Origin: Syntrophus sp. (in: bacteria)
GTDB lineage: Bacteria > Desulfobacterota > Syntrophorhabdia > Syntrophorhabdales > Syntrophorhabdaceae
Length of the DNA: 64,000 nt
Direction of reading: 5' to 3'
Assembly (NCBI GenBank): GCA_013824835.1
Contig: PNOM01000004.1
Span: 1 to 64,000 of the forward strand
The number at the start of each line of letters is the position of its first letter. The stretch's first letter is position 1. Below the pieces are notes generated by a model. The model made no database searches, had not been told where the DNA came from, and saw only the letters and a program-made list of their open reading frames with translations. A program made the translations under genes and the position numbers. Positions 29,972 to 48,804 of the stretch are shown in pieces.

Positions 29972-30016
29972 TGTTTTACTCCTCATCTGTTTTGTTAATT
30001 AATACAGCTTATTGTT

Positions 30017-31420
30017 TTATAAAAGCTCCAAATTCATTACACGTATCTCATTAAACTTATCACGGTAATAATCTAATTGCTCAAAGCTCATATTTTTTGG
30101 TTTCAAATAATACTGTTGAACTTTCTGTACGGGATCCAGATCAATTTCGCCTTTCCAAATCTGTTCTTCAGAGAAGGTTGTGAGCGAAAGCCCTTCCTTT
30201 TTGGCCTGATCAAATACCTTTGTGCCAGGGAAGGGGATAAGATTAAATACATAGTTCAGGTCCGCCTTGAGTTCTACGAGAAGATCATAGGTGTCCTGAA
30301 GGGTCTGCGGAGTATCTTCAGGAAAGCCCATAATAGACATTGTACTCACGCGCATTCCGTTGTCCTTGAGCAATTTCTTGGCACGAAATATTTGTTCGCG
30401 CGATAAATTTTTATTGATAACGGTATTACGCATATAGTCATTTCCGTGCTCAATAGGAAGCCGGGCAAATACACAACCAGCCTTGCCCAGTGCATATGCA
30501 ATATCTTCATCCACTCTGCCCAGATAAAGCCCGCATGTCGGTTCAAATTGAATGTTCAGTTTCCGTTGAATAATCTGGTTGCAAATTTCAATTACATGAT
30601 CTTTATTAAGATTGACGTTGTCATCGATAAACCCGAAATAGTTCATCCCATACTCTTTATTCAGGTGCTCAATTTCATCAACAACTTTCATTGGGGAACG
30701 CATCCGAAACGTGCGCCCCATTGTTTTATGACAAGCGCAGAAATTGCAATTAAATGGACAACTACGGGAGGTAAGAATAGGAACTGAAAGTTGAATATTC
30801 AAATCCTTGGGGTTGTGCCACCCCGTGTGATCCGAATAGTAATCCTCCAGCCTGATTAAATCCCATGCAGCCTGGGGAAGGGCATCCAGGTCAGCAATAT
30901 AGCTCTTGCGGGGGTTGGTGATTACTTTGCCGTTAACGCGGTATGTAATCGCCTGAATGAATTCGAGATCAGTCAGTTTTCTGTTTTCAACAGCTTTTGC
31001 TAAAGCGACGACTTGCTCTTCACCTTCGCCCAGAATGACCGAGTCAATGGCAGGGCAGTTGTTGAGAATCTCCTCTGCAAATAGTGTAGGATGAGCTCCG
31101 CCCACTGTTAAATGAATATCCGGCGCTATCTTTCGAATACGATCCGTTGCCTTAATGATGAATGGAAGATGTTGGCTTACAAAACAATTGAACCCGATTA
31201 TCGTAGGGTTCAACTTGCTTATATGCTGTTCAATCATGGATAGCAAACCCTCATCTGAAGAATCACCCGCTTCAATTGGTGCAATCGATAAATCTAAAAC
31301 AGTAGGGGCGTATCCGGCGTCACGCAGCACTGCTGCAAGGCAGATTAGCGATACCGGTATGGTACCTTTTGACTCTTGCATCCAGCTTAACTTCCTGCAG
31401 TTTATTAATAGCACATTCAT
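30017..31420 (-). CDS. B12-binding radical SAM enzyme
   Basis: A 467-residue protein with a cobalamin-binding-like N-terminal domain (about residues 1-145, ending in VILGEGEEQVVALA) and a radical SAM core with the cluster motif Cys221-x3-Cys225-x2-Cys228 in SRSCPFNCNFC. The core also shows FGFIDDNVNLNKDHV and STMSIMGFPEDTPQTL. This class includes methyltransferases that act on unactivated carbons and other unusual enzymes. Its start overlaps the stop of the second such enzyme (ATGA). The substrate is unknown; within this island a sugar or glycan methylation is a reasonable guess. Confidence 0.85.
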   Translation of the reverse strand: MNVLLINCRKLSWMQESKGTIPVSLICLAAVLRDAGYAPTVLDLSIAPIEAGDSSDEGLLSMIEQHISKLNPTIIGFNCFVSQHLPFIIKATDRIRKIAPDIHLTVGGAHPTLFAEEILNNCPAIDSVILGEGEEQVVALAKAVENRKLTDLEFIQAITYRVNGKVITNPRKSYIADLDALPQAAWDLIRLEDYYSDHTGWHNPKDLNIQLSVPILTSRSCPFNCNFCACHKTMGRTFRMRSPMKVVDEIEHLNKEYGMNYFGFIDDNVNLNKDHVIEICNQIIQRKLNIQFEPTCGLYLGRVDEDIAYALGKAGCVFARLPIEHGNDYMRNTVINKNLSREQIFRAKKLLKDNGMRVSTMSIMGFPEDTPQTLQDTYDLLVELKADLNYVFNLIPFPGTKVFDQAKKEGLSLTTFSEEQIWKGEIDLDPVQKVQQYYLKPKNMSFEQLDYYRDKFNEIRVMNLELL

Positions 31421-33333
31421 TGTATGTCCTCCGTGTAATCCATGCCTACTAAATTGGAAATATCAATCACATTCTTGACGCTTTTGTAGTTAGTGCCTAT
31501 CTGTGCTTCTATATAGCCAATGTGATATGGTGCTGTCACAACAACTGTTTCTATCCCTTCATTCGCAATAACATCCGGGGAGTAAATTTGTATCCCGAAT
31601 AAATCCTTGTTTTGTTTACTGGTACAAATGTCAATAGGGAAGATGTTTGCATCATGTAACACATCAGAATTACGGAAAATGTCCATCGCGTGATAGGTCA
31701 TGCCCCAAAAAGCAAGCTTCCCATGTTTTCTCAATAACTTTAAAACGTTGACATCTATATTTGAACGGATAGTTGAATTCAGTGGCGGATTGAATTGTTG
31801 CCCGCACTTTTGACAAACGATAAAGTTAGGCTTAAAGAGGCGCACGTTTTCCCAGTTATTTTTTGTTCCGCATACGCTACACTCCCCATTTAAACAGATA
31901 CAACCATCTCTATCGTTAATACTGTATACTTCAAAAGAAGAGAGTAACTTTGTATTGCTTAGAGCGGCCTCCATCAATTCCTTTGTAAATACCTGAAATT
32001 CATCGTCTGTCATCTTTGATATATTGAGTTGAGGGCATCCGTCTCTAAGGAATTGAACTTTATCCTTAATGATGCCCTTCTCACATGCATATTTATAGAT
32101 ATGAGTCCCTGGAAATGCGGTAATAAGTCTCAAGCTTGCACTATATTCAGGATGCTCTTTCCACCAATTAAGTGTATTGTTCGCCGTTTCTAAAGTCTCT
32201 TCTATATCGCCGAAAATAAATCCTGCGCTAATGGGTATCCCTGTGTCATACACCAATTTGAGAGTCCGTTCTATCTGTTCAATAGTAATGCCTTTTCTCA
32301 TGCTTTTCAGTATTCGATTGTCTGCACTTTCCAATCCAAAGCCCATGGTAATGCAGTTTCCCTCTTTAAGCAAGGGAAGCATCTCCGGGGTTATATCGTC
32401 AACCCTGAACCCTCCCAACCATTTGATATTGTACTTCTTGATCCGCAAACAAAACTCTTCAAGACGGGAGATGTCCCGTGCAAACAACTCATCCGACAAG
32501 GCCAGGCTCTCGACCTTGTAATTGGATACAAGGTAGTCCAGTTCTTCAAAAAAGCCGTCCAATGAACGCTGTCGATATTTTCTGCCCACAGTGTGAAAAC
32601 AAAAGGTGCAACCGTAAGGGCATGAACGACTTGATATCATTGCAAGGGTATTGCTTTCAATAAAGCCAATGATTCCAAGTGTCGCCGCCAGATTCTTTTC
32701 CAATTCGAATCCCTCATAGTCAGGCCATGGGATTGAGTCGATATCCGCAATTTCTTTGCGGTGTTTGGTGATTGTGTAGTCGCTTTCATTTTCCAATGTG
32801 GATCCGCAAGAATTGATGCCGGGTTTGTTAAAGATATGATGGTTTGATTTAAATATCAATCCATCCACAGCAGTGAGATCGCCTTTGTTTTCCAGTGCGC
32901 GGCATAGCTCAACGCCGGTAACCTCCCCTTCGCCGATTACCCCTATATCAACATATTCCAGGGCATCCATTGCCACAACCGGGTCACTTGTGATGATCCC
33001 TCCCCCTACGACAGTTACAATGCTCTCGTTAATCTTTTTCGCAGTTTCGATGATGGGCCTGACCATGCTGTATTGTGCCGAGAGCGCACCAACCATTACC
33101 ACATGTATATCGTCATTCTCAAACCTGCTTTTCAGGATATCGTAAAGAGTTCCATCACAATGATTAAGATTGAGAGTGAATACGTTGAAGCCTGCCTTTT
33201 TCATGCTTGAAGACACATAAGCAATGCCCAATGGAAAGCCATAGCTGTCTCCGATATTTCGTACAAAACGCGGCATAACCAACAGGTAGTTTAATTTATT
33301 GATTAACTGGTCGCCTGAAGTCTTCTTCAACAT
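31417..33333 (-). CDS. B12-binding radical SAM enzyme with zinc-ribbon and Rossmann-like C-terminus
   Basis: A 638-residue protein. The cobalamin-binding-like domain covers about residues 15-160 (TVVGGGIITSDP, GVIGEGEVTGVEL) and the radical SAM core has Cys238-x3-Cys242-x2-Cys245 in SRSCPYGCTFC. After about residue 470 come two CxxC pairs (ECSVCG and VCQKCG) that look like a zinc ribbon, then a terminal Rossmann-like module from about residue 545 with KLAFWGMTYHAMDIF and a VVVTAPYH strand. That module recurs in five other proteins of the island. The added C-terminus is unusual for the class. Confidence 0.83.
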   Translation of the reverse strand: MLKKTSGDQLINKLNYLLVMPRFVRNIGDSYGFPLGIAYVSSSMKKAGFNVFTLNLNHCDGTLYDILKSRFENDDIHVVMVGALSAQYSMVRPIIETAKKINESIVTVVGGGIITSDPVVAMDALEYVDIGVIGEGEVTGVELCRALENKGDLTAVDGLIFKSNHHIFNKPGINSCGSTLENESDYTITKHRKEIADIDSIPWPDYEGFELEKNLAATLGIIGFIESNTLAMISSRSCPYGCTFCFHTVGRKYRQRSLDGFFEELDYLVSNYKVESLALSDELFARDISRLEEFCLRIKKYNIKWLGGFRVDDITPEMLPLLKEGNCITMGFGLESADNRILKSMRKGITIEQIERTLKLVYDTGIPISAGFIFGDIEETLETANNTLNWWKEHPEYSASLRLITAFPGTHIYKYACEKGIIKDKVQFLRDGCPQLNISKMTDDEFQVFTKELMEAALSNTKLLSSFEVYSINDRDGCICLNGECSVCGTKNNWENVRLFKPNFIVCQKCGQQFNPPLNSTIRSNIDVNVLKLLRKHGKLAFWGMTYHAMDIFRNSDVLHDANIFPIDICTSKQNKDLFGIQIYSPDVIANEGIETVVVTAPYHIGYIEAQIGTNYKSVKNVIDISNLVGMDYTEDIQ

Positions 33334-33409: not shown

Positions 33410-34195
33410 TCAGCTATTTTCAAGTGTTTCTGAAGCTGTTTTGGATAGATAAATTGAGTTTGCAGCCCACATTCTATCTCGCCTGGTATACAGAAATGGG
33501 GAAATATCCCAAAGTTGATATCCCAGGGAACCAAGGTATGCCGACAAATCGGAATAGTTCGTCTGGCCTTCATAGCAGTCTGCAAAGGTAGTCTCCACAT
33601 AGATTGCGGAAATTATCCCTCCTTGTAATTGAGCATGAGCTCCTTTTAATACGGTTAGCTCCGATCCTTGAACATCAATCTTGAGAATGTCAATTTTTAA
33701 ACAATCTGACTCGATGCAGTAGTTGTCCAGTGTTTCAGTTTGAATACTTATCAGTTCATAATCGTATTTATGCTCAACGCTGATAGTGCGCATCCGTTCA
33801 GTCGGGCTGAGCAGAGAGGCAGCTTCAGAAATCCTGGTCGCGTGAAAAGGGGCTGTTTTTACAGAATCGGATAATGCCACACTACTCAAGAATATTCCGG
33901 GAGTATTCCCCCATTTTTCATACAGTATTGCAAATGTAGGCGGATTAGGTTCGAAGGAATGTATCTCGGCCTCAGGCCACACCTGTCTGAATTTTTCAAT
34001 GCTCTGCCCGACATTAGCGCCAACATCAAAGATTGTTGGAATGACAATCCCGAGTTTAGTTATTAGTCGTTGCAGACGTGAAAAGGATTCTCTTTCGCGA
34101 TCCTCCAGGTTAATGGTTTTCCCGAATATCTCTTGTCCGGGACCTATGCTCGAATTACCGCTTTTCTCAAAAATGTTTTTATTGTCGTCTTTCAT
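33410..34195 (-). CDS. FkbM family SAM-dependent methyltransferase
   Basis: A 261-residue methyltransferase of the FkbM family, which usually O-methylates sugars or macrolides. The SAM-binding motif is TIFDVGANVGQSIEKF, followed by IHSFEPNPPTF and the family block ILKIDVQGSELTVLKGA. The ATG at 34195 (MKDDNK) has GGGG six bases upstream and is preferred to the one at 34207. It lies in the middle of the island, 24 bases after the C-methyltransferase-like gene. A second FkbM protein is encoded at 41.3-42.5 kb, so at least two methylations are likely. Confidence 0.9.
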   Translation of the reverse strand: MKDDNKNIFEKSGNSSIGPGQEIFGKTINLEDRERESFSRLQRLITKLGIVIPTIFDVGANVGQSIEKFRQVWPEAEIHSFEPNPPTFAILYEKWGNTPGIFLSSVALSDSVKTAPFHATRISEAASLLSPTERMRTISVEHKYDYELISIQTETLDNYCIESDCLKIDILKIDVQGSELTVLKGAHAQLQGGIISAIYVETTFADCYEGQTNYSDLSAYLGSLGYQLWDISPFLYTRRDRMWAANSIYLSKTASETLENS

Positions 34196-34219
34196 TATGC
34201 ACCCCAAAAATATATGTCC

Positions 34220-35371
34220 TCATAATTGAATAATCTTACCCGCAAATGAGGCTGACTGTTCAATTTCTTTACGCATTTGCAGCGAGTATTGAGAATAGGG
34301 CAAAACTAATACTGTTTCTTTAGAGAGGGTTCCTATTTCCCGGGCATCCTCAATGGTGATTCCACGAATCTTGCGCCCTATCTTTGCCGGGGATGCATCG
34401 AATAATCGATCCACTTGCTCAAGTTGCGGCAAACTTCCCATGAGCAGCATCGCATACTGAGATACGCCCCACAGTGCTATTGGTCTATTGTCTTGCAGAA
34501 GATCACCCTTCGTCAACAGGGGCAGGGTGAACCGCGGGCCCGTGACCATGTCGGGTTGATTTATTGTGTGGTCCGATATACATCGGAATTGTCCAACCAG
34601 GAACAGGCATTGAACATCTGCTTGATTTTTTGAAAACGGTGTAGATGCTACTCTTGTTACCTCGATACAAGACTGTGCGGCAAGGTTGGAAAAACTATCC
34701 TTGCAAAAGTGGTTCAGGTGCTCAAAATAGAGTTCATACCAACGCATTACCCTGGGCGAAAGATAAGATGCTGCATCCGGCACTTCTATATAGACTAATG
34801 CATCCGGGGCGTTGCGGATAAGTTCTTTCAGCATATCCAACGGTCTAAGCAGATGTTCCAGAACATGTGAAATTACCACCGTACTGATGCCTGTTTCGGG
34901 ATGCAAAGCAGCATATTCTTCAATGGATGTGTAAATATCTAATCCGGCATTGAGTCCAACATTCCTGCTTTTTTCAGAAGGCTCTATGCCTGCGGCAGAA
35001 AAACCATGGTGAAGACATCGGGCTACAAATCCCCCTTGGCCGCATCCAACATCAAGAATTGTTCCCTTGGGGTCCGGATGCAAATTATCGATGATTCTGT
35101 CATATCGATCTGCATTATCGTCAGACAGGCTTCCTGATCCGCCAAGGCTCGATGCAGCGTAGTGTTCGTTGCGACGATAGTATTCCTGTAGCTGCCCTTC
35201 CGTAAAGGCAACATCATCATACATCATGCCGCACTCACTGCATTGTATGAGAGTTTTTGTGCCCGGGATTCCCAGGTCATCAAAAAGGGCATATGTCAAC
35301 AGTCCAAGAACAGTTCCCGACCGTTTTTCACAGATTGGGCAGGTTCTCAGAGGTGTGCATGTTTGCTCCAT
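34220..35371 (-). CDS. C-methyltransferase-like protein for a deoxysugar
   Basis: A 383-residue protein with the three-part layout of NDP-hexose C-methyltransferases (TylCIII type). A zinc site is formed by Cys11, Cys14, Cys44 and Cys47 (CPIC and CSEC). The SAM motif is GTILDVGCGQGGF at about 103-115, with VVISHVLEHLLRP and YFEHLNHFCKDSF typical of the family. The C-terminal third is a Rossmann-like module, IALWGVSQYAMLLM onward. Known members methylate C3 of 4-keto-6-deoxysugars, the kind of substrate made by RfbF and RfbG here. The assignment to C-methylation is from layout, not from tested residues. Confidence 0.75.
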   Translation of the reverse strand: MEQTCTPLRTCPICEKRSGTVLGLLTYALFDDLGIPGTKTLIQCSECGMMYDDVAFTEGQLQEYYRRNEHYAASSLGGSGSLSDDNADRYDRIIDNLHPDPKGTILDVGCGQGGFVARCLHHGFSAAGIEPSEKSRNVGLNAGLDIYTSIEEYAALHPETGISTVVISHVLEHLLRPLDMLKELIRNAPDALVYIEVPDAASYLSPRVMRWYELYFEHLNHFCKDSFSNLAAQSCIEVTRVASTPFSKNQADVQCLFLVGQFRCISDHTINQPDMVTGPRFTLPLLTKGDLLQDNRPIALWGVSQYAMLLMGSLPQLEQVDRLFDASPAKIGRKIRGITIEDAREIGTLSKETVLVLPYSQYSLQMRKEIEQSASFAGKIIQL

Positions 35372-35375
35372 AATG

Positions 35376-36695
35376 TCAGTTCCTGTCCATCATAATGGTT
35401 TTACATACAGTTTCAAGTTCCGGGTCACTTCCCAGCATGTTGAGATAATGAAAGGGTGTCCCCCGTGTCTTTGATGTAAAGTCTTTGTGAAATATATTGG
35501 AACAGTCCCGGTGCAGTGCTTCTTCGAAGGTCTGTCGTTCTTCAGAATTTCCCAATGAAGCAAGAAATAGGTGGGAAGGGCTGCCGCACTTAACGCCGTC
35601 TATTGACGGTAGTTGCAATATCCGTGGCTGTTTCGGAAGGCTGAGGATTTCATCAAAAATAGCATGAAAAGCCTCAATGCTGTGCTCTATCCCACACTCT
35701 TCCATAACAAAGCGATGACCGCCAGCCGCGAGCCTGTTGCGTTCAGCAGGATTCTCCATCAGCATATGAAGGGCTGTTGAGAAATCGGCAGCGTTCTTTG
35801 CAACAAGTCCTGTCTCCCCATGGTAGATAATAGCTTCCTCAGGAGGATTAGCCAGGACCACCGGGACAGCGCCAAAAGCCATTGCCTCGATCAACACCTG
35901 CTCCCCGGTCCCGTAGTGCCTTGGGGTCAATGGATAAGCAAAGGCGTGGAGTTGCTTAAAAATAGTCATCGGATCAGTCACAGGTCCAAGGATATTGAAA
36001 CAGGATTCGAGGTTCATGGCTACCGCTCTTTTGCGCAGTTCCTCGTGAGCGGGGCCGCCAGCCACTATGAAAGGAGAAGGAATCGCGGCATTGGCGCACA
36101 AGCTGAGGAAGTCGGGATGCATCTTGACCGATTCTACGGTGCCTAAATATCCTGCCTGAAAAGGATTCGATTTTTCACAAGTAACCTCGGAACCCTCGGG
36201 TATCCCGGAACAACTACGGATAACGCGAAGTCTTGATTTAATCCCCTCCGGAAGCATCTGAACAGCAGGCGCTGTGAAAGATGTTTTCGTTGAAAAGATA
36301 AACCTGTCGGCCATTTCAAAGAGTGCGGGGAAAAATGTTTGCGGTGGGAAAAAGCCATTGACATGGGACCACATTATAAGTCTTGTCGCAGGAAGTCCTT
36401 GAAACAAGAAGCGCATAATAAGAGGATGATTCCACCAGTGTGCAAGGACTATGTCAGCCCCATCCAGAAGAGCCGGCAGTTCTTCCTGTCGTTTTACGGC
36501 AATTTCGTCTATCCAGGGAATGCGATGCTTGTCGCAATGCCTTTGCGTGACTTCGTTAAGATATTCCAGAGAGGCCACAGTATGTTTGTAAGGGCATCCA
36601 GGAATTGACTCTGCTGCCAGAATGGATCGTATGACTGAGCCAACCCCGCCGCCTGCATGAGGGAGAATATGAAGAATATTGTATTGACGTTGCAT
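35376..36695 (-). CDS. Glycosyltransferase family 4 (GT-B) protein
   Basis: A 439-residue glycosyltransferase. The N-terminus is ILHILPHAGGGVGSVIRSIL, with the glycine-rich loop of GT-B enzymes. The C-terminal half carries AGYLGTVESVKMHPDF and EQVLIEAMAFGAVPVVLANPPEE, the conserved nucleotide-sugar-binding EX7E-type region. About 70 residues after the usual end form an extra C-terminal segment. It may transfer the modified deoxysugar made by the island. Its start is one base from the end of the first radical SAM/SPASM gene, so the genes are cotranscribed. Confidence 0.85.
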   Translation of the reverse strand: MQRQYNILHILPHAGGGVGSVIRSILAAESIPGCPYKHTVASLEYLNEVTQRHCDKHRIPWIDEIAVKRQEELPALLDGADIVLAHWWNHPLIMRFLFQGLPATRLIMWSHVNGFFPPQTFFPALFEMADRFIFSTKTSFTAPAVQMLPEGIKSRLRVIRSCSGIPEGSEVTCEKSNPFQAGYLGTVESVKMHPDFLSLCANAAIPSPFIVAGGPAHEELRKRAVAMNLESCFNILGPVTDPMTIFKQLHAFAYPLTPRHYGTGEQVLIEAMAFGAVPVVLANPPEEAIIYHGETGLVAKNAADFSTALHMLMENPAERNRLAAGGHRFVMEECGIEHSIEAFHAIFDEILSLPKQPRILQLPSIDGVKCGSPSHLFLASLGNSEERQTFEEALHRDCSNIFHKDFTSKTRGTPFHYLNMLGSDPELETVCKTIMMDRN

Positions 36696-36696
36696 G

Positions 36697-37947
36697 TCAG
36701 TATCGTTCCTCTTCGCTTATTTTTGCGTAGATTCCACAGTAACGATGAATGCCGTGATTCCTGCATCTGACACATAGAGAAGACGTCATGCGTTGGGTAG
36801 TGATATTTTCGATGGAGGTCTCAAGAAAGTTCCCAGCGCAGGTGTTCCTCTCCGGGTCATAGTACATCATGCATGTGGAAACGGAAAGATCGGCATTGAT
36901 CATTACCACTCTAAGGGAATCGCAGTCCAGCGAGGCTTCTGCCTTTGCCATTGCAAGCCCTTCATCGATATCTATCAATAACAGCTTTCTCGCGCGGTGA
37001 GCTGCGTCTGGAAGCGGTGTGCCTTCACAGTACCCCAATACATCATCGAGAGATATAAGATATGCCGGGACAGGATGGAATTCGAAGTCGAATCTGCTGC
37101 ACATCTCGGCTACCTGTTCTTGTTGTATGCCAATGCTGTGCTTGTAACGGTGATAGTAAAGCTCAACTTTCATTTCAGGATATATTTCTTGCCGCAGACC
37201 GGCAATTGTTTCAACATTAGAAACAAAAGCATTCCAGTTGCCGCCAGTGTGTGTGATCCCGTAACTTTCACCTGTTCCTGAGACAGATATGCGCAGGCAC
37301 TCCGGGCGCGATTCGATCAAGGCACGGAAGTCCGCTGCATAGTTCAAATTACTGGATATTGTACAGAGTATGCTGTTTGCCCTGGCGTAGCGGACTATAT
37401 CGGGAAGATACTTATTGAGTGTTGGCTCTCCCCACTGATAGAGCTGGATGTTTCCAACGAATGGATCTTCCCTGCGAATCTTCGTAATCACCTTTTTAAA
37501 GGTATCAAGGCTCATCATTCTTGTTGAACGTTTGTTTGTACGATACCCTCCTCTTGGGCAGGATATGCAGTGAAGATTGCAAATCCCGGAGACTTCCACC
37601 ACGTAATCACGCGGTTTAAGGCTGCTGTATGCTACATAGCTGACATTGCGGATAAAACCGCAGGATTCAAGAAAACCGGACACTTCATGTTCAAAGAAAA
37701 AGACTGCAATAATAACAAATGTAGAATCGACTGCACCGGGTTCGCTCAGAACCTCTGGGGCAAATACAGGAAGGCCCGCTAAAAAACGGCCATGCAAGTC
37801 CGGATTTCTGTCTATGAAGCCTGCAGGTTCAATGCCATGCTCTCTGAGGGCACGAACCACACCCCTGCCCTGACTTCCTGCACCATAAACCAGAATCTGC
37901 TTGCCTTCAGACACCCTGGCAGTCAACAGTTCAAGATATTGTGTCAT
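36697..37947 (-). CDS. Radical SAM/SPASM enzyme with N-terminal Rossmann module (paralog 1)
   Basis: A 416-residue fusion. Residues 12-105 form a Rossmann-like module (QILVYGAGSQGRGVVRAL, then GFIDRNPDLHG). The radical SAM core begins with Cys123-x3-Cys127-x2-Cys130 in SGICNLHCISCPRGG. Blocks shared with the next two proteins are LYQWGEPTLN, ISSNL, and SGTGESYGITHTGG. A cysteine-rich SPASM-like C-terminus (STCMMYYDPERN, SLCVRCRNHGIHRYC) should bind auxiliary clusters. It overlaps the next paralog by 4 bases. Function unknown; SPASM enzymes modify peptides, sugars or alcohols. Confidence 0.83.
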   Translation of the reverse strand: MTQYLELLTARVSEGKQILVYGAGSQGRGVVRALREHGIEPAGFIDRNPDLHGRFLAGLPVFAPEVLSEPGAVDSTFVIIAVFFFEHEVSGFLESCGFIRNVSYVAYSSLKPRDYVVEVSGICNLHCISCPRGGYRTNKRSTRMMSLDTFKKVITKIRREDPFVGNIQLYQWGEPTLNKYLPDIVRYARANSILCTISSNLNYAADFRALIESRPECLRISVSGTGESYGITHTGGNWNAFVSNVETIAGLRQEIYPEMKVELYYHRYKHSIGIQQEQVAEMCSRFDFEFHPVPAYLISLDDVLGYCEGTPLPDAAHRARKLLLIDIDEGLAMAKAEASLDCDSLRVVMINADLSVSTCMMYYDPERNTCAGNFLETSIENITTQRMTSSLCVRCRNHGIHRYCGIYAKISEEERY

Positions 37948-39188
37948 CTATTGGTCTCCGCTTCGTCAAGCCGCTTTTCAACAAGGTAAACACCTGTGAA
38001 CTGGTGTATTCCCCGTTTTTTACATTCCATGCAAAGCCGGCTTTTCCGCTTCCGCTCCATAATTTCCTTGAGTGGTATTTCAAGAAAGTTTTCAGCGATA
38101 AAAGGGCGGAAATAAACCCCGCATTCCCGCACACTGCAATCCCAGTTAATGGGGAAACATCTCTCTTCGGGGCAGGGCTTATCAGCCCGTTCGCGCGCCC
38201 TTGCAATGCCTTCGTCCAGGCCCATCAGGAGCATTGGAAGGGTTTTCTGAGCCTCGGGAGACAGTTCCTTGCCGTCAATATAATCCATCACAGCATCGGC
38301 AGGGTAGAGATAAGCAGGACTGGGCCTGAAAATAAGGGAGAGTTCCTTACAGAGGGCTTCCATCCTCAGATAGTCATCTCCGATATTATGTTTGTAGAGA
38401 TGATAGTTTAGCGTTATCTGCATTTCCGGGTGAATACGGTCGCGGAGTTCGGCAAGCTTATGAAGGTTTGACAAAAAGAGATCCCATTTCCCTCCGGTAT
38501 GAGTCAATTCATAGCTTTCTCCCCATCCGGAACAGGAAATCTTGAACCAGTCCGGCCGGGCCTCAACCACGGCTTCGAGATTCTTCGCAAAGTTAAGGTT
38601 GGACGAGATAGCGGAGAGCACCCTCGCATCGCGCGTCATGCGGATTATTTCAGGAAGTTCGCTGTTGAGCAAGGGCTCTCCCCATGTGTAGAGTTGAATA
38701 CTTCCCAACAGAGGGATTTCAAGAATGAGCTTGTCGAGCACCTGCCCATAGGTGGCGGCGCTCATGTGCCCTTTGGCAGGTTGTGAATGGTCATTGCCGC
38801 GAGGGCATGATATGCACCTGAGGTTGCACATGCCGGCGACGTCTATGCTGGGGTCAATATCATTGAGTTCCCGGCACAGGATGTAATCCTTGCCATGTTT
38901 CAGACCAACTTTGCTGCAATGATCACCAATCTCCAGGTCAAAATGACCCGATGCTGCGATAATAACCCCGTCACCGGAACGAACCAATTCGAATAGATCG
39001 TCCGGTTTTCGAATATCATAACCAAGGGCTTTTCTGCCCTGAAGCGATTCAGCGCTGTCAAGAAACGAAGTAACAGGTATTGATACCCTCTCCAGCGACC
39101 GGCAAACTCCCTGACCGACAATCATCGCCCCCCAAACGAAAACCTTTTTGTTTGAGCAAATTTGGCGTAATTCTTCTACGGTAATCAT
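37944..39188 (-). CDS. Radical SAM/SPASM enzyme with N-terminal Rossmann module (paralog 2)
   Basis: A 414-residue paralog of its neighbours. The N-terminal module is VFVWGAMIVGQGVCRSL with SFLDSAESLQG; the cluster motif is Cys121-x3-Cys125-x2-Cys128 in AGMCNLRCISCPRGN. Shared blocks are LYTWGEPLLNSELPEI, ISSNLNF and SGWGESYELTHTGGKWD. The SPASM region has CFPINWDCSVRECGVYF and SRLCMECKKRGIHQF; the final cysteine found in the other two paralogs is replaced here by phenylalanine-threonine. It lies 3 bases after paralog 3 and overlaps paralog 1 by 4 bases, so the trio is a tandem array from duplication. Confidence 0.83.
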   Translation of the reverse strand: MITVEELRQICSNKKVFVWGAMIVGQGVCRSLERVSIPVTSFLDSAESLQGRKALGYDIRKPDDLFELVRSGDGVIIAASGHFDLEIGDHCSKVGLKHGKDYILCRELNDIDPSIDVAGMCNLRCISCPRGNDHSQPAKGHMSAATYGQVLDKLILEIPLLGSIQLYTWGEPLLNSELPEIIRMTRDARVLSAISSNLNFAKNLEAVVEARPDWFKISCSGWGESYELTHTGGKWDLFLSNLHKLAELRDRIHPEMQITLNYHLYKHNIGDDYLRMEALCKELSLIFRPSPAYLYPADAVMDYIDGKELSPEAQKTLPMLLMGLDEGIARARERADKPCPEERCFPINWDCSVRECGVYFRPFIAENFLEIPLKEIMERKRKSRLCMECKKRGIHQFTGVYLVEKRLDEAETNR

Positions 39189-39191
39189 GCT

Positions 39192-40475
39192 TCATTCTTC
39201 CTTTTGTATTGGTATACTGGATTTTAACGTGATGAGTTTTTCATCGCCGTAGACACAATAGGCCCTGTGTATGCCCTTTTCCATACATTTACGGCAGTGT
39301 TCGCTGCTAATGCGGGCAGCCTCGATTTCATCAAGGCTCGCTGAAAGGAAGTCCTTATCTAAGAGCGTAAGGGCAGGATCATACCACTCCATGCAATGCG
39401 CTATTGACAGATCCCAATCGATCCATAGATGATCCATGAAAAAACAAGGACGACTTTTTTCATCACGGGCAATTTTCATGACATCCTTAACCTGGAGAAA
39501 CTGCAGTTCACCGGTCATTTTTGCGGCATCCGTGGTTGGTGCACCCTGGTCAACCAGGGCGATATTGTCAAGTGGGGCCAGAGCAGCATGTCGGTAACGG
39601 AGCGTGAAGTCCAATTCATCACAAAGTGCCTGAATTTTTGAAAAATCTTCCCGGTTGTGAGAATAGATATGAAAAAAGAACTCGACCAGCATTTCAGGAT
39701 GATGGCGTTGTCTGTAATCAGATAACTTCATGCAATTGGCAAGGAAGATATCCCAATTGGCGCCGGTATGGGTAGTTTCATAGTTTGCCCCCCAGCCTGA
39801 GTTAGAGATACGGAACCAGTCGGGGCCGGCCTGGACAACATCCTCGAAATCCTTCTTCATAGAAAGATTGCTGGATATCGCAGAAAGAAGACCCTTTTGC
39901 CTTGTAATGTTTATAATCTCAGGCAAAGCTTGATTGAGAAGGGGTTCCCCCCAGTTGTAGAGTGTTAGTATTCCTGTCCAGGGGTCGTCCCGAAGTATTT
40001 TGTCAACAAGCCTGCCATAAGTTTCAGCGGACATAAACCCCGGTTTGCGATGCCGCGGCCAGTTGCCTCGAGGACATGATATGCACCGCAGGTTACACAT
40101 GCCTGAAACATCAATCTGGTAATTGAACCGGCGCAATTCACCAAAAACTGTGAAATCTTCACCCTTAAGCCAGCCTTCTCTCTCGCATCTTTCAGCAATT
40201 TCGTCAGCATAGAATCCTGATGCTATTACAATGAAAGACCTTGCTGTTGACTCTTTCTTAAAAAAACTGACAGGATCCATGATCGACAATTCAAAGGCTG
40301 AAGTGCCGGCAAGAGAAGGAGAGCTGTCAATATAGCCGGTTGCGTTAATTCCTTGCCTTCCCAAAGCGAGACGAGCAGCATAACCTTCATGACGGGCGCC
40401 CCAGATGAATACGTTGCGCCCTGCAATCTGGTTCACAAGATTTTTAGGGTCTGATAGTGGATTTTCCTTCAGCAT
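39192..40475 (-). CDS. Radical SAM/SPASM enzyme with N-terminal Rossmann module (paralog 3)
   Basis: A 427-residue protein, the first transcribed of the trio. The Rossmann-like module is VFIWGARHEGYAARLAL with GYIDSSPSLAG; the radical SAM motif is Cys127-x3-Cys131-x2-Cys134 in SGMCNLRCISCPRGN. LYNWGEPLLNQALPEI and SGWGANYETTHTGANWD match the paralogs. The SPASM-like end has LSIAHCMEWYDP and SEHCRKCMEKGIHRAYC. It starts about 50 bases after the CmcI-like gene. The conserved tryptophan-glycine-glutamate and threonine-histidine-threonine-glycine blocks probably form the active site, but the reaction cannot be told. Confidence 0.83.
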   Translation of the reverse strand: MLKENPLSDPKNLVNQIAGRNVFIWGARHEGYAARLALGRQGINATGYIDSSPSLAGTSAFELSIMDPVSFFKKESTARSFIVIASGFYADEIAERCEREGWLKGEDFTVFGELRRFNYQIDVSGMCNLRCISCPRGNWPRHRKPGFMSAETYGRLVDKILRDDPWTGILTLYNWGEPLLNQALPEIINITRQKGLLSAISSNLSMKKDFEDVVQAGPDWFRISNSGWGANYETTHTGANWDIFLANCMKLSDYRQRHHPEMLVEFFFHIYSHNREDFSKIQALCDELDFTLRYRHAALAPLDNIALVDQGAPTTDAAKMTGELQFLQVKDVMKIARDEKSRPCFFMDHLWIDWDLSIAHCMEWYDPALTLLDKDFLSASLDEIEAARISSEHCRKCMEKGIHRAYCVYGDEKLITLKSSIPIQKEE

Positions 40476-40525: not shown

Positions 40526-41308
40526 TTATTTTTTTACACATTTTAAGTACCCATCCGGGGCAACGGTAATAAGAAGTTTATTCTCAATATCCTTATCTAC
40601 CATAAACCGGTTATTTGTTTTTAAAAACTCCCGGACCGCTGTTTTGGGGTTGTTTCCCGGTCCCCAGGGCCGGTCAGAAAACATATCAGCAGGCATATCT
40701 TCAACTAAAGTATCAAAAACGCAGCAATAACTGCCAACTGAAACGAGCGAAGCATATGCCTCCAGTTCTGCTAAAACATGCTCGTGAGTGTGGTTTGAAT
40801 CAAGGCAGACCAGGATGCATTCATATTTTTTTGCACGATTGTGCACCTCGGCGATCACCTCCGGCGCAATGCTGGAGCCCTGGATCATATCTATTTTGTG
40901 TGCCAGGGGGTGGGCTTCAATCGCTTCCCGGTTATGAGCACGTATATCAATATCCAAACCTAATACCCGCCGCTTACCGGACTTGGGGTCAAGAACTGTG
41001 CCGGCTGCCACGGCGTCGCAATAATCGAGTATTGCCAGCATGGAAGCGCTCATTATCAACGAACCTCCGTGCGCTATGCCGGTCTCAATAATCAAGTCCG
41101 GGCGGACTTGCCAGATAATTTCCTGCATAGCAATCATATCTTGGGGTACCTGGATGATCGGGCGACCTAAATATTTAAAATTATAACCATATTTATATGG
41201 GGAGACATCGCAAAGCCATTGTAGCGTTAAATTATACAAGGCTTTATCAGCACTGATGCGCGCTATGCTTTCTTTCACTTCCTGCTCAAATTGATCAACG
41301 TAATTCAT
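40526..41308 (-). CDS. CmcI-like (cephalosporin hydroxylase family) protein
   Basis: A 260-residue protein of the CmcI family, whose members are Rossmann-fold SAM-dependent methyltransferases despite the name. It shows YKYGYNFKYLGRPIIQVPQD, the motif DLIIETGIAHGGSLI for SAM, VLGLDIDIRAHN, and LVCLDSNHTHEHVLAEL. Homologs are frequent in lipopolysaccharide and rhamnose-containing glycan loci. It lies between the second FkbM gene (20 bases) and paralog 3 of the radical SAM trio. It probably methylates a sugar hydroxyl. Confidence 0.87.
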   Translation of the reverse strand: MNYVDQFEQEVKESIARISADKALYNLTLQWLCDVSPYKYGYNFKYLGRPIIQVPQDMIAMQEIIWQVRPDLIIETGIAHGGSLIMSASMLAILDYCDAVAAGTVLDPKSGKRRVLGLDIDIRAHNREAIEAHPLAHKIDMIQGSSIAPEVIAEVHNRAKKYECILVCLDSNHTHEHVLAELEAYASLVSVGSYCCVFDTLVEDMPADMFSDRPWGPGNNPKTAVREFLKTNNRFMVDKDIENKLLITVAPDGYLKCVKK

Positions 41309-41328: not shown

Positions 41329-42465
41329 TCAGTGCTTGTGGATCCTGTTTCCCCGTGGGACCCAACAATATAAAACCGACTCTGCAAATATCGGGGAATG
41401 CTGACGAATTGCTATGCTATATTCAGGCACAAGGCTTTTAACATATTCCGCTATTTCAAAAAGGTGAGCAGTGGTATGATAGATACTCAATGCCATCTTC
41501 GGTTTAAATTGACGAATTGTTTTATTTGCACCATGGAGCATCGCTAATTCCATGCCTTCAATATCCGCCTTGATAAACGTTGCAGGGCGACCTGCCAGAT
41601 AGCTGTCAAGGGCGTAACAACGAATATTTCCCCCTTGATCATTATCTCCGGGGCTATCGTTGTTGAGAGAGGTATTTGCAAGCACGTTAGACATAGATAA
41701 TGTCAATCTTTTGTTCTTGTCGGCCAATCCGGCATTTTCACAAATAATAGCGGATTCTGAAATCACCCATTCTCTACGGAGTCTTTCAACGCGGTGTTTC
41801 ATTGCGATCAGTTGAGGTTCTCCCGGCTCAAATGCATAAATTTGCGTAAAGACTCCGCTGCACATCCAGATGAACTTTTCTATCGTATCTCCGACATATG
41901 CACCGGCATCAATGAAGTGATCATTTCCGAAATTTATGAACTCAGGAAGGGCAAAATACTGGTTAGCCTCCATGACTGCGGCACAGTAGGAGTTGTCTCC
42001 TGTAAGCATTGTTTTCAAAATTCCGTCATAGCTCAATTTCGATTGATCGTCACTTAACAGATTGTTGCGGACACGAGCGAAACGCTCCATATTCTTAATC
42101 AGATAAAAAGCATCGAATGGCAGGCTGTCAATTCCAAGGTTTGCCAGTTGATGCTGCACTGAAAGCGCGCCATTGCGAATCGTTATAAAGACTGTTGGCG
42201 CTGACGCAACAGAGGCATCCTGTGGAGGAACAACACGGATGCCCCCGAACAATGTGCCCTGCTTAACAGGATCATTATCTGCAAAGCAAAGGACGCGAGT
42301 CCCGATATTCTTTAGATATCTGGCTGCGATATGGCCATGAGGCCCGGCGCCAAAGATCACTACACCTTGAGCCAAGTCATTCTCTGTTAAGGAAAAGGTC
42401 TTCTCGATGTCTGAAACAAGCGCTACAATCTCTCTCCAGCTTCTTGCTGTTTTGTTATGAATCAT
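41329..42465 (-). CDS. FkbM methyltransferase with N-terminal Rossmann module
   Basis: A 378-residue protein. Residues about 30-115 form the recurring Rossmann-like module (GVVIFGAGPHGHIAARYL, CFADNDPVKQG). The FkbM methyltransferase domain follows, with HFIDAGAYVGDTIEKF, IYAFEPGEPQLIAM, and TFIKADIEGMELAMLHGAN. The ATG overlaps the SDR gene by 4 bases. This two-domain form of FkbM proteins occurs in other glycan loci. It likely O-methylates a sugar of the glycan made here. Confidence 0.88.
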   Translation of the reverse strand: MIHNKTARSWREIVALVSDIEKTFSLTENDLAQGVVIFGAGPHGHIAARYLKNIGTRVLCFADNDPVKQGTLFGGIRVVPPQDASVASAPTVFITIRNGALSVQHQLANLGIDSLPFDAFYLIKNMERFARVRNNLLSDDQSKLSYDGILKTMLTGDNSYCAAVMEANQYFALPEFINFGNDHFIDAGAYVGDTIEKFIWMCSGVFTQIYAFEPGEPQLIAMKHRVERLRREWVISESAIICENAGLADKNKRLTLSMSNVLANTSLNNDSPGDNDQGGNIRCYALDSYLAGRPATFIKADIEGMELAMLHGANKTIRQFKPKMALSIYHTTAHLFEIAEYVKSLVPEYSIAIRQHSPIFAESVLYCWVPRGNRIHKH

Positions 42466-43334
42466 TCTTTATCCCCAATGTTGTCCAGGAACCGATCCAG
42501 CCGATCCCGGTTCCCCCAGAAGGCCATGGGCTCATAATCCGGGTAAGGGTAGTGCCCAAGATCAAGTTCGATATTCCAACCCTTTTCCTCTAACCATTGT
42601 TCCACCAGCTTGCGGACAGAGACAGGCTGTCCGGTACACACGTTGATTACACCTGGATCATCCTTGTATAAGGTCAGCAGAACGATAAGCCGCGCCACTT
42701 CACCGACAGGGAGGTAATCACGCATTTGTTCACCGCCGGACATTTTAAAGGTTTTATCTCCTCGCGCTATCGCTTCTTTGAGTAACGGGTAAAGAGAACT
42801 TTTAGGTTGTCCTTCCCCGAACATATAAAAAAGTCTCGCCCATGTTAAAGAAAACGGGCGGACTTTCTGCAAAAACTGAAGCTGTCTCCGCAGGGTATCC
42901 TTGGCGCAACCATAAGGATTTTGAGGATTCGCAGGCAGATCTTCCGATAATGGACCCGATTGCATGCCATATTCAAAACATGTGCCTGCAACGAGGAGCG
43001 AAGGCAAACCAGCTTCGATCATCCTTTTAAGAAAAGAATACTGTCCGGGTAATTCGGTTTCAAAATGATGCAAAGATCTGTAATTCGGCAGACCATCCCA
43101 GGCAAGATGGATAAGGGCATCCGGACAACCCAGCGCGGTGAAGCAATCCGGGTGTGGGCGGGCAATGTCCATTTCGATAATATCTACCCTGTCAATCCAG
43201 TCCGACAGATGGTCGGCATTGCGGGTAACGGCAACTACTTTCAGGGAATGATTCATCAAATGCGCCATAACATGCCTTCCCAAAAACCCCGAGGCCCCTG
43301 TAACAGCAACCTTCAGTGGGAGCGCGGTCATCAT
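42462..43334 (-). CDS. NAD(P)-dependent epimerase/reductase (extended SDR)
   Basis: A 290-residue extended short-chain dehydrogenase. It has the nucleotide-binding TGASGFLGRHVM, a serine/threonine region AGTCFEYGMQSGPLSED, and the catalytic YxxxK in NPYGCAKDTL. Family members in this context reduce or epimerise NDP-4-keto-6-deoxysugars. Because rfbF, rfbG and an RmlC-like gene precede it, it is the likely C4-reductase that finishes the CDP-deoxysugar. Its ATG overlaps the RmlC-like gene by 4 bases. Confidence 0.9.
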   Translation of the reverse strand: MMTALPLKVAVTGASGFLGRHVMAHLMNHSLKVVAVTRNADHLSDWIDRVDIIEMDIARPHPDCFTALGCPDALIHLAWDGLPNYRSLHHFETELPGQYSFLKRMIEAGLPSLLVAGTCFEYGMQSGPLSEDLPANPQNPYGCAKDTLRRQLQFLQKVRPFSLTWARLFYMFGEGQPKSSLYPLLKEAIARGDKTFKMSGGEQMRDYLPVGEVARLIVLLTLYKDDPGVINVCTGQPVSVRKLVEQWLEEKGWNIELDLGHYPYPDYEPMAFWGNRDRLDRFLDNIGDKE

Positions 43335-43909
43335 AAAGTAACTCCCTCAAAATTTTCATCAATAAAGGAATGATGTTTGTCTTTTTCGGATGTTTCGGTC
43401 ATAACAAGAGGCCAGATGATTCCAAGACTTGTATCAGTGACATTAAGGGCGCCTTCTGACTGCGGGTGGAATGATGCAGACACCAGATAGATCACTTCGC
43501 AATTTTCGCTGAGCGCCTGGAAGCCATGGGCAAACCCTTCAGGGATCAGCAGGCTTCTCTTATTGGCAGCAGACAGGATTTCGCCGTGCCAGCGCAGGAA
43601 GGTGGGAGAGCCTTTTCGGATATCGACTGCCACATCAAATATCTCACCCTTGAGGCAACTGACGATCTTAACTTCAGCATGGGGCGGATACTGGAAATGA
43701 AGCCCGCGAACAGCACCCCTGTTCCTGGTGAAGGTGTGGTTGATCTGGGCTATGCTTTTTTTTAAACCAGGCTGAAAAAATTCGTCGGCACAAAAAAAAC
43801 GGCTGAAAAAACCCCTGTGATCCTCAATGGGATTGCGTTGAGCAATCATTAACCCGGCAATAGGAGTGGTTTGAAAATCAAAACGTTTAACAGGCGTATC
43901 CTCACTCAT
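43331..43909 (-). CDS. RmlC-like NDP-sugar epimerase with altered active site
   Basis: A 192-residue cupin of the dTDP-4-dehydrorhamnose 3,5-epimerase family. It keeps DHRGFFSRFF, RGLHFQ with the catalytic histidine, IFDVAVDIRKGSPTF and IPEGFAHGFQAL. Where Salmonella RmlC has ATNYYSPSSEG with catalytic Tyr138, this protein reads VSASFHPQSEG, so the tyrosine is serine. The enzyme may therefore epimerise only one carbon, use another acid, or not be an epimerase. Substrate is presumably the CDP-4-keto-6-deoxyglucose made by RfbF and RfbG. A 60-base gap with a hairpin separates it from rfbG. Confidence 0.85.
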   Translation of the reverse strand: MSEDTPVKRFDFQTTPIAGLMIAQRNPIEDHRGFFSRFFCADEFFQPGLKKSIAQINHTFTRNRGAVRGLHFQYPPHAEVKIVSCLKGEIFDVAVDIRKGSPTFLRWHGEILSAANKRSLLIPEGFAHGFQALSENCEVIYLVSASFHPQSEGALNVTDTSLGIIWPLVMTETSEKDKHHSFIDENFEGVTL

Positions 43910-43969: not shown

Positions 43970-45064
43970 TCAAGTCCATACAAGCCTCTTGTTAGTCCTG
44001 TCAATCATGTAATTTTTTAAATTGTCGATGCTCAGCACTCTGCCGTTTTCATAAAATTCTTTATACCACCTTGTTGCTATTGCAAGGGTCTTTTCGATGT
44101 TCCAAAGGGGTTTCCAACGAAGTATTGCATGCGCTTTTGAACAGTCAAGCTTAAGCAAGCCCGCTTCATGAGGGGCATTCGTATCCGTCTTTATTTCGTA
44201 TTCTATTTTATCCCATTCCTTTTTAATTTCCATTAATACGGTCTCAACATCAATGGTGCTCTCATTATCGGGTCCGAAGTTCCATCCTTCTGCGAGATCT
44301 GTCCTGCCTTCCAGAAGTTTTTGCCCGAGCATTAAATATCCGGATAATGGTTCAAGTACATGCTGCCATGGACGGGTTGCCCTTGGGTTTCTTATAATGA
44401 CTTTCTCGTTCTTGCTTGCAGCTTTCATAATATCAGGCATCAATCTGTCAGCAGCCCAGTCGCCGCCGCCGATAACATTGCCTGCACGTACACTTGCCAG
44501 AAGAACGTTATGTGTTCTGCCGTAATCCCTGAGATTGAAAAATGAATTACGATAGCTTGAAGTGACGATTTCGGCGCACCCCTTGGAAGCGCTATATGGA
44601 TCATAACCGCCCATAGGATCATTCTCGCGGTATCCCCAAAACCATTCTTTATTTTCGTAACATTTATCACTGGTAATATTCACTATTACCCGTACAGAGG
44701 CTGTGTGCCGGCACGCTTCAAACAGATTTATTGTTCCCATTATGTTTGTTTCTAATGTCTCAACGGGGTTGTTGTATGAGTATCTTACCAGTGGCTGAGC
44801 CGCAAGGTGGAAAACGATTTCCGGCCTGTGGTTTTTCAGGGCGGAACGAATAGCATCTATATCCCGTATATCCCCTGAAATAGAGGGCATATTTAAGTCC
44901 AACAATTGAAAATGATTCGGCTGCGACGGGGGATGAAGCGAAAACCCAACAACATTCGCCCCAAGCTCTTTCAGCCATAATGCAAGCCAGGAGCCTTTAA
45001 AGCCCGAATGGCCTGTAATGAACACCCGTTTGTTTTCCCAAAAATTATCATTTATAGACAACAT
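43970..45064 (-). CDS. rfbG: CDP-glucose 4,6-dehydratase
   Basis: A 364-residue SDR enzyme that turns CDP-glucose into CDP-4-keto-6-deoxyglucose. It shows VFITGHSGFKGSWLALWL, the FKG variant of the NAD-binding loop typical of CDP-glucose dehydratases, VFHLAAQPLVRYSY, and YxxxK in YDPYSASKG. The frame is open to 45133, but the first 23 codons overlap rfbF; the ATG at 45064 is 5 bases after the rfbF stop and gives the usual family N-terminus. The gene pair rfbF-rfbG is standard. Confidence 0.95.
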   Translation of the reverse strand: MLSINDNFWENKRVFITGHSGFKGSWLALWLKELGANVVGFSLHPPSQPNHFQLLDLNMPSISGDIRDIDAIRSALKNHRPEIVFHLAAQPLVRYSYNNPVETLETNIMGTINLFEACRHTASVRVIVNITSDKCYENKEWFWGYRENDPMGGYDPYSASKGCAEIVTSSYRNSFFNLRDYGRTHNVLLASVRAGNVIGGGDWAADRLMPDIMKAASKNEKVIIRNPRATRPWQHVLEPLSGYLMLGQKLLEGRTDLAEGWNFGPDNESTIDVETVLMEIKKEWDKIEYEIKTDTNAPHEAGLLKLDCSKAHAILRWKPLWNIEKTLAIATRWYKEFYENGRVLSIDNLKNYMIDRTNKRLVWT

Positions 45065-45068
45065 TATG

Positions 45069-45845
45069 TTAATCCCATACCTTCCAGGGTGCGTTGCCGG
45101 TCTTCCACAGTTCTTCCAATAAAGCCTTATCACGCATCATATCCATGGGCTGCCAGAAACCACAGTGCCGGTAGGCCATGAACTGCTGGTCTGCCGATAT
45201 TCTTTGCAGGGGATCCAATTCGAGATTAACACTGTCTTCGCTAAGATAATCAAAAACCTCAGGCTCCATCACAAAAAATCCACCGTTAATCCAACTGTTA
45301 TCACCTCTTGGTTTTTCTTTGAAACCCTTTACTTCACCGACTTCAGATATATCAAGCGCACCAAACCTGCCGAGCGGCTGAGCCGCGGTAACCGTGACAC
45401 ACTTCCCGTGAGACCTGTGAAATTTTATCAGTTCGTTAATATTAATATCTGAAACTCCATCACCATAGGTAAGCAGAAAGGGTTCATTGCCGACGTATTT
45501 TTGAATACGCTTGACCCTGCCACCCGTTGCCGTTGCATATCCTGTATCTACCAGGGTAACGGTCCATTTTTCTGCATAGTGCTGATGGGTAAATATCTCT
45601 TTCCCGTTTTTAAAATTAAAAGTTACATCTGATTCATAAATCAGATAATTTATAAAGTATTCTTTGATTACATTGCCTTTATATCCAAGGCATATGATAA
45701 ATTCGTTGAAGCCGTAATGAGAGTAAATCTTCATTATGTGCCAAAGCATCGGCCGGTCGCCAATTTCTATCATAGGTTTCGGTTTCAAGTGCGATTCTTC
45801 GCTAATTCGGGTGCCTATGCCACCGGCCAGAATGACTACCTTCAC
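45069..45845 (-). CDS. rfbF: Glucose-1-phosphate cytidylyltransferase
   Basis: A 258-residue nucleotidyltransferase making CDP-glucose from CTP and glucose-1-phosphate. The N-terminus KVVILAGGIGTRISEESHLK has the nucleotide-binding signature, followed by KPKPMIEIGDRPMLWHIMK and FLLTYGDGVSDININELI. I start it at GTG 45845 behind GGGGG at five bases, giving the usual family N-terminus; a longer frame to 45884 would run into the sigma54 promoter. It is the first gene of the glycan island and commits sugar to the CDP branch. RfbH, needed for 3,6-dideoxyhexoses, is absent. Confidence 0.95.
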   Translation of the reverse strand: MKVVILAGGIGTRISEESHLKPKPMIEIGDRPMLWHIMKIYSHYGFNEFIICLGYKGNVIKEYFINYLIYESDVTFNFKNGKEIFTHQHYAEKWTVTLVDTGYATATGGRVKRIQKYVGNEPFLLTYGDGVSDININELIKFHRSHGKCVTVTAAQPLGRFGALDISEVGEVKGFKEKPRGDNSWINGGFFVMEPEVFDYLSEDSVNLELDPLQRISADQQFMAYRHCGFWQPMDMMRDKALLEELWKTGNAPWKVWD

Positions 45846-45879
45846 GTTGCCCCCATACAATAAGGATATCAATATAACC

Positions 45880-45895
45880 AGCAAGTATTATGCCA
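45880..45895 (-). promoter_or_regulatory. Sigma54 promoter of the glycan island
   Basis: Minus strand TGGCATAATACTTGCT, an exact match to the sigma54 consensus TGGCAYRN4TTGCW with correct GG-to-GC spacing. It lies 35 bases upstream of the rfbF GTG. The same class of site precedes flgF and the GH108-like gene, tying the glycan island to the flagellar programme. Confidence 0.8.
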
Positions 45896-46155: not shown

Positions 46156-46578
46156 TCAAGCAATTCCAGATACTGTTTTTACCTTATTTTCCGGGGAAAA
46201 TCGTTTTTGCTTCTCGTTTTCATAGGCCCCTTCAAAACCCTCGTTTATCTTCGTGAGCAGGGACTTGCACTCGTCAATGCCCTTTATATCAAGACTAAAT
46301 TGGATGTTTCTCAGCCGTCTGATAAGGTAGACATATAAGCTTGAAAGATTTCTCGGTATCTCTCCATAGGATCTATCGAGGGAGCTGTCAAGGATTTCGA
46401 TTGCTGTCATGATTTTTGACAGTTCACGGTCTTTCACCAGATAGTTCTGATTTTCTATGGCATGTTTTACAATCTCAAGCTTCTCCAAAATAATTTGATA
46501 AACTTTAAGTAATACCTTCGGCGTATCATCCAGGTTTACGCTTCTCTCGACATTGCGGTACGCTTCGTATGGGTTCAT
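46156..46578 (-). CDS. fliS: Flagellin export chaperone FliS
   Basis: A 140-residue four-helix chaperone that binds the C-terminus of flagellin. The N-terminal MNPYEAYRNVERSVNLDDTPKVLLKVYQ is characteristic. The ATG at 46578 follows AAAAGGA by six bases and is the family start; the frame extends further up to 46620 only by overlapping fliD. The C-terminal 30 residues are charged and extend slightly past the usual end. It is the last gene of the fliC-flaG-fliD-fliS series. Confidence 0.92.
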   Translation of the reverse strand: MNPYEAYRNVERSVNLDDTPKVLLKVYQIILEKLEIVKHAIENQNYLVKDRELSKIMTAIEILDSSLDRSYGEIPRNLSSLYVYLIRRLRNIQFSLDIKGIDECKSLLTKINEGFEGAYENEKQKRFSPENKVKTVSGIA

Positions 46579-46597
46579 ATATGTTCCTTTTGGATAA

Positions 46598-48421: not shown

Positions 48422-48425
48422 CTGA

Positions 48426-48743: not shown

Positions 48744-48763
48744 GGCATCACATACCTTTTTTG

Positions 48764-48791
48764 ATTGCCCCCCTCGTGTGAGGGGGGCAAT
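48764..48791 (-). terminator. Strong hairpin between fliC and flaG
   Basis: ATTGCCCCCCTC and GAGGGGGGCAAT form a perfect 12-bp stem with a 4-base loop, 13 bases after the flagellin stop. On the minus strand it is followed by CAAAAAAG, not by a T-run. It should protect the flagellin mRNA or lower read-through into flaG-fliD-fliS, giving excess flagellin over cap and chaperone. Confidence 0.65.
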
Positions 48792-48804
48792 ATGTCGTTA
48801 ATTG

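Follow-up and report, generated by a model that had tools for sequence, protein, structure and literature searches.

BtrN, the 2-deoxy-scyllo-inosamine dehydrogenase (PDB codes: 4M7S, 4M7T), oxidizes a cyclitol and belongs to the radical S-adenosylmethionine (SAM) enzymes with a twitch domain, a truncated form of SPASM holding a single auxiliary cluster; the cluster has four cysteine ligands in BtrN and three in MoaA (review, PMC9012708). DesII, a thymidine diphosphate (TDP)-4-amino-4,6-dideoxyglucose ammonia-lyase, is a radical SAM enzyme acting on a nucleoside diphosphate (NDP)-6-deoxyhexose, and it dehydrogenates one such sugar, TDP-D-quinovose, at C3' (PMC11434129). Here we describe three adjacent genes, rsA, rsB and rsC, in the first 64,000 nucleotides (the window) of contig PNOM01000004.1 of Syntrophus sp. 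Their products share with BtrN the radical SAM core, an xGEPLL block and one predicted four-cysteine auxiliary cluster. In the PDB, the family profile matches BtrN best (E 2e-8) and DesII and BlsE more weakly; the fold comparison gives a TM-score of 0.67 over BtrN. In contrast to the three proteins, BtrN has no Rossmann module and acts on a free aminocyclitol; the match is limited to the core at ~15% identity, outside BtrN-family membership. DesII, a weak match by profile and fold, differs in size, and no PglD/Rex-like module is reported for it in the part of the literature available. We propose, at somewhat better than an even chance, that the genes lie in a flagellin-glycosylation island and that their products carry out distinct radical steps on a sugar derived from a cytidine diphosphate (CDP)-6-deoxyhexose.

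Three radical SAM proteins with a twitch end

The genes lie head to tail, with one 4-bp overlap and one 3-bp gap, within a minus-strand gene run from 45884 down to ~28568 (Table 1). An earlier note on this DNA had described three adjacent genes for proteins of 416, 414 and 427 residues sharing a CxxxCxxC core and the blocks LYxWGEPxLN and THTGx(N/K)W; the coordinates and lengths match the open reading frames, and all the blocks are present in each protein. Since the pairwise identities are 33-41%, the trio is not an assembly artefact. In the host genome rsA, rsB and rsC are the only strong family members (next matches at E ~1e-5), and the same trio is also present in at least 14 other genomes.

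CxxxCxxC is present in 63 of 63 relatives, which places them in the radical SAM superfamily, and all of them match PF04055 (Radical_SAM) at E 0.01 or better. Their alignment contains 14 invariant columns, including the cysteines of the core (three) and of the C-terminus (four, spaced C-x16/17-C-x28-32-C-x2-C). Because these four correspond in number to the cluster ligands of BtrN, the C-terminus is, as judged from sequence, a twitch of the BtrN kind with one predicted auxiliary cluster; fold matches to BtrN and EpeE agree with this assignment. The SPASM motif CX2CX5CX3C was found in none of the 63 relatives. With only four invariant C-terminal cysteines, a SPASM domain is ruled out, and the SPASM-like end of the earlier note has to be replaced by a four-cysteine twitch instead of a seven-cysteine SPASM. 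None of the cluster residues is lost on alignment, every cluster cysteine being kept in all three proteins.

The AlphaFold2 model of rsA has a mean predicted local distance difference test score (pLDDT) of 95.5 and a predicted template modeling score of 0.93. Foldseek ranked SkfB, BlsE, SuiB, anSME, EpeE, BtrN, viperin and DesII, in this order. The fold matches SkfB, SuiB and EpeE would fit a trio that modifies a peptide or protein, in the manner of a maturase of ribosomally synthesized and post-translationally modified peptides or on flagellin directly, as would the top NCBIfam match, the tungsten oxidoreductase radical SAM maturase model TIGR04317, which is matched by 63 of 63 relatives. However, the window's proteins reach only 42-52 bits (52, 41.5 and 45.7) against a cut-off of 380, the SPASM motif is not found and the constant partners are sugar enzymes; we consider peptide modification quite improbable. 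The same scores lie far outside membership and led us to reject a tungsten-maturase function, and unlike the setting of such a maturase, the cassette shows no tungsten oxidoreductase. It is noted that a genome survey with TIGR04317 returned many sub-threshold radical SAM proteins.

Three co-inherited families

In a maximum-likelihood tree of 67 sequences, the window's three proteins fall into three separate groups (families A, B and C); the groups comprise the same organisms and branch almost alike, with some deep forks weakly supported. The A-B-C order is fixed in 15 genomes of deltaproteobacterial, gammaproteobacterial and zetaproteobacterial lineages, and in the 15 organisms with all three the pairwise identities of one family track those of the others (r = 0.92). 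Paralogs of one organism are 32-48% identical, versus within-clade means of 51-58%, and together with the tree these values rule out a recent local duplication. The trio is old, and its three families have been inherited, or moved, as one set. The triplication with divergence proposed earlier thus holds for the three diverged paralogs but not as a recent event. Carriers are rare; at E 1e-60 only three, the window's own genome among them, turned up in 395 genomes of the phylum.

Every family shows a distinct set of invariant residues, some of them on or just after predicted strands 5 and 6; radical SAM enzymes usually hold the substrate around the fifth and sixth strands. Family-specific residues include R295, H296 and F267 in A, N261 and Y295 in B, and Y264 and C404 in C. 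The fixed order and the co-divergence could also be expected of a single hetero-complex catalyzing one step, with one or two members being structural. This arrangement appears very improbable given that all three proteins retain every cluster cysteine and that each has invariant residues of its own. The three related steps suggested in the earlier note gain from the co-inheritance and the different invariant pocket residues; the reactions themselves can only be proposed from sequence.

Some carriers have a fourth copy. One such member forms a separate clade, distinct from families A, B and C (L010:14980-16221, L013:12536-13771, L016:12411-13892). In the Deltaproteobacteria bacterium Smac51, several members lie on a 65-kb plasmid (CP026658.1; L022/L023) and not in A-B-C order; its genome has six family members, all on one contig.

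The N-terminal Rossmann module

The first 116 residues of rsA modeled alone give a pLDDT of 92.3. Rex nicotinamide adenine dinucleotide (NAD) domains are the top fold matches, followed by 3nkl, VioB, PglB, Pcryo_0637, KijD1, PerB and an FkbM protein; by profile, the matches are 3nkl (E 1e-6), VioB (2e-5), Rex (2e-4) and, weakly, PglD. The Rossmann-like N-terminal module that had been recognized from the sequence is confirmed by the profiles and by the confident rsA model. PglD_N of Pfam matches only 2 of 63 relatives at 0.01, short of membership by gathering score, and NeuD_NnaD matches 31 of 63 at 0.001, which points to a relation with PglD_N/NeuD-type NDP-sugar domains by distant homology only. 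In VioB, PglD and Pcryo_0637 the N-terminal domain, homologous to the module by profile and fold, is fused to a left-handed beta-helix acetyltransferase, unlike in the trio. The domain of Pcryo_0637 is a platform for uridine diphosphate (UDP), and Asp residues of Pcryo_0637 and PglD help bind the UDP-sugar (PMC8040287). One Asp, located where strand 2 ends, is retained by 62 of 62 trio-family modules and may be equivalent to that UDP-sugar-binding Asp, based on alignment by eye.

The second P-loop glycine is replaced by Arg in family A and mostly by Met in family B, both conserved, while family C keeps GAGxQGRG; with this glycine lost, ordinary NAD binding is unlikely in A and B. The same replacements should hinder dinucleotide binding if the module were to bind NAD(H) as in Rex and to donate or take up electrons or hydride, in which case each protein would be a radical oxidoreductase or two-step epimerase complete in itself. 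The ranking of the Rex domains and the glycines of family C speak for such a role, which we nevertheless regard as improbable.

Against a control of seven further Rossmann domains from the cassette (hhalign, 0.3-24%), copies of the module stand out at the N-terminus of the adjoining FkbM protein (98.8%) and at the C-terminus of the adjoining methyltransferase (98.4%); a possible copy on the first B12-radical SAM protein is weak (64.6%). In related clusters the module is found on other radical SAM proteins, at either end, and on FkbM proteins and C-methyltransferases. It is a portable module, a relative of the Rex NAD domains and of the VioB/PglD nucleotide-sugar domains, and the fusion to radical SAM, called unusual in the earlier note, is not a one-off.

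Several further proteins carry it, one of them probably. After the trio cassette of L006 there are two different Rossmann-module and radical SAM proteins of 461 and 402 residues (L006:10056-12652), the first with a close relative in G016 (C89:156409-157734), and a 728-residue haloacid dehalogenase-type protein (L006:13688-15874) whose start weakly resembles the module (E ~0.01) and which has a close 725-residue relative in G016. L026:12248-13567 combines the module with a twitch-like cysteine end, a radical SAM domain not being detectable, and may be a dead (pseudo) radical SAM enzyme. In L038:1420-2733, a radical SAM-twitch protein, the module is C-terminal, not N-terminal.

The sugar cassette and its flagellar setting

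The cassette genes (Table 1) were assigned from curated models, and the order was judged where the contig extends far enough. It is usually RfbF, RfbG, RmlC-like, short-chain dehydrogenase/reductase (SDR), (FkbM), A, B, C, GT4, methyltransferases, CmcI type and B12-radical SAM, and the cassette is conserved across classes. In G313 it stands isolated among unrelated genes and therefore behaves as an exchangeable unit.

Table 1. Coordinates of the trio, its parts and the neighboring genes in the window
Feature	Coordinates	Strand	Remarks
rsA (family A)	39192..40475	-	427 aa; first in reading order; Rossmann module, radical SAM, twitch
rsA Rossmann module	40128..40475	-	P-loop GAR[HQ][ED]G
rsA CxxxCxxC motif	40074..40097	-	
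rsA twitch	39285..39446	-	invariant C344, C361, C394, C397; one auxiliary cluster expected
rsB (family B)	37944..39188	-	414 aa
rsB Rossmann module	38859..39188	-	P-loop GAMIVG (few relatives: GASIVG/GAAIIG)
rsB CxxxCxxC motif	38805..38828	-	
rsB twitch	38022..38174	-	C339, C356, C386, C389
rsC (family C)	36697..37947	-	416 aa
rsC Rossmann module	37612..37947	-	P-loop GAGxQGRG
rsC CxxxCxxC motif	37558..37581	-	
rsC twitch	36763..36924	-	C342, C359, C392, C395
fliS, fliD, flaG, fliC (filament operon)	46156..49629	-	just upstream of cassette
Glucose-1-phosphate cytidylyltransferase (RfbF)	45069..45884	-	TIGR02623, 407.9 bits, over cut-off
CDP-glucose 4,6-dehydratase (RfbG)	43970..45133	-	TIGR02622, 502 bits, over cut-off
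RmlC-like sugar 3,5-epimerase	43331..43909	-	PF00908, E 3e-59
SDR sugar reductase/epimerase	42462..43334	-	PF01370, E 3e-28
FkbM methyltransferase	41329..42465	-	N-terminal module copy ~42124-42387
CmcI/rhamnosyl O-methyltransferase family	40526..41308	-	PF04989, E 9.7e-96
GT4 glycosyltransferase	35376..36695	-	nearly always immediately after rsC
SAM methyltransferase	34220..35371	-	C-terminal module copy ~34223-34495; sugar C-methyltransferase-like layout
Second FkbM methyltransferase	33410..34207	-	
B12-binding radical SAM	31417..33333	-	C-terminal module copy possible (weak)
B12-binding radical SAM	30017..31420	-	kept in cassette

The window's cassette starts 272 bp after fliS, behind fliC-flaG-fliD, and the arrangement is the same in G016. 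When 17 further carriers were searched for flagellin-domain genes, five had one on the cassette's own contig, at most ~17 kb away: fliC in G425, FlgL in G434 and G432, fliC-flaG-fliD-fliS in G433 and fliC-flaG-fliD in G430 (the names FlgL and FlgK were assigned from sequence). In total, 7 of the 19 genomes, the window included, have filament genes no farther than ~17 kb from the cassette, versus ~0.6 expected by chance; this estimate assumed one flagellin-domain gene each in G000 and G016, where two were found (the change is small), and the 19 genomes are related to each other, with some contigs too short to tell and two metagenome-assembled genomes showing no flagellin. This linkage of sugar genes to flagellin genes, absent from the earlier note, makes a flagellin-glycosylation island the best reading of the cassette. 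The flagellar genes and the cassette are bordered by glycosyltransferase-like proteins bearing tetratricopeptide repeats (49773-51461 and 28568-29986), which are candidates for the attachment of the sugar to flagellin.

In the established pathway RfbF and RfbG lead to CDP-4-keto-6-deoxyglucose. The window's cassette showed no 3-dehydrase of the pyridoxamine 5'-phosphate (PMP) type, and the usual 3,6-dideoxy route is therefore not obvious. A scheme that could account for the substrate, the order of steps, the reaction type and the ligand of the module begins with RfbF and RfbG making that same keto sugar, which the RmlC-like epimerase and the SDR would convert to a CDP-6-deoxyhexose. Each of rsA, rsB and rsC would then cleave SAM and take a C-H hydrogen from the sugar, while the N-terminal module would most likely hold the substrate by its nucleotide, as in VioB, PglD and Pcryo_0637. 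The four-cysteine cluster may accept an electron, giving a keto sugar by dehydrogenation, or the radical may be quenched, giving epimerization. Dehydrogenation is favored for at least one of the three, and epimerization is possible; when a catalytic cysteine for the latter was sought, C404 proved invariant in family C only. The neighboring enzymes would C- and O-methylate the oxidized or inverted sugar before its transfer by the GT4 enzyme, with flagellin as the final carrier. The methyltransferase after the GT4 gene, with cysteines near its N-terminus, a SAM domain and a C-terminal module, resembles KijD1, and since this layout is that of sugar C-methyltransferases, a keto sugar would suit it.

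The main uncertainty concerns the state of the substrate, CDP-linked or glycan-linked. The trio might act after transfer, on a lipid-, oligosaccharide- or flagellin-bound sugar, with one enzyme for each residue or position and the module binding an acceptor or a partner protein instead of a nucleotide. The glycosyltransferase directly after the trio, several methyltransferases possibly acting late and the loss of the canonical GxGxxG in the P-loops of A and B would fit such a late action. Against it, module relatives of known ligand bind nucleotides or NDP-sugars and the invariant Asp closing strand 2 is retained, so that we judge it unlikely, if still worth considering. A sugar or nucleotide-sugar substrate, as already suggested in the earlier note, is well backed by the conserved CDP-glucose cassette, the proximity to BtrN, the weak DesII and BlsE matches and the relation of the module to VioB and PglD, the substrate itself being our proposal. 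Other observations weigh against radical steps on a nucleotide-linked flagellin sugar: SkfB and SuiB, which act on peptides, are likewise good fold matches, the Rex likeness of the module would also suit a cofactor role, and not every cassette is close to flagellin (those of G313 and the L019 genome, for instance, are not), which means that certain hosts may send the glycan to another destination. More tentatively, the three enzymes may rewrite a CDP-6-deoxyhexose at three positions while the module shared with the pathway's methyltransferases holds it, yielding an undescribed flagellin sugar.

Since radical enzymes and methyltransferases have the module in common, it may serve as a handle by which a substrate is passed between them, and the trio with its diverged pockets offers a clean system for how twitch enzymes select sugar positions. 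The cassette is testable in cultured hosts, e.g. Allochromatium warmingii and Thiorhodococcus minor.

The enzymes that build flagellin glycans usually work by polar chemistry. The literature found on the flagellin glycosylation islands of Geobacillus, Aeromonas, Shewanella (sfm) and Enterobacteriaceae does not mention radical SAM enzymes, and the search returned nothing relevant joining radical SAM with CDP-glucose or flagellin glycosylation. NF033640, a model of twitch proteins with an N-terminal domain that was considered as the parent family, gave no match in 60 relatives, but none in the controls either, and this result therefore carries no weight. No characterized family fits the trio. 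As here, those islands link sugar and methyltransferase genes to flagellin modification, and methylated flagellin glycans are known from Shewanella. Set beside these systems, the trio's three twitch radical SAM families form a real, well-conserved and uncharacterized set, no new category, in what is best read as a flagellin-sugar island.

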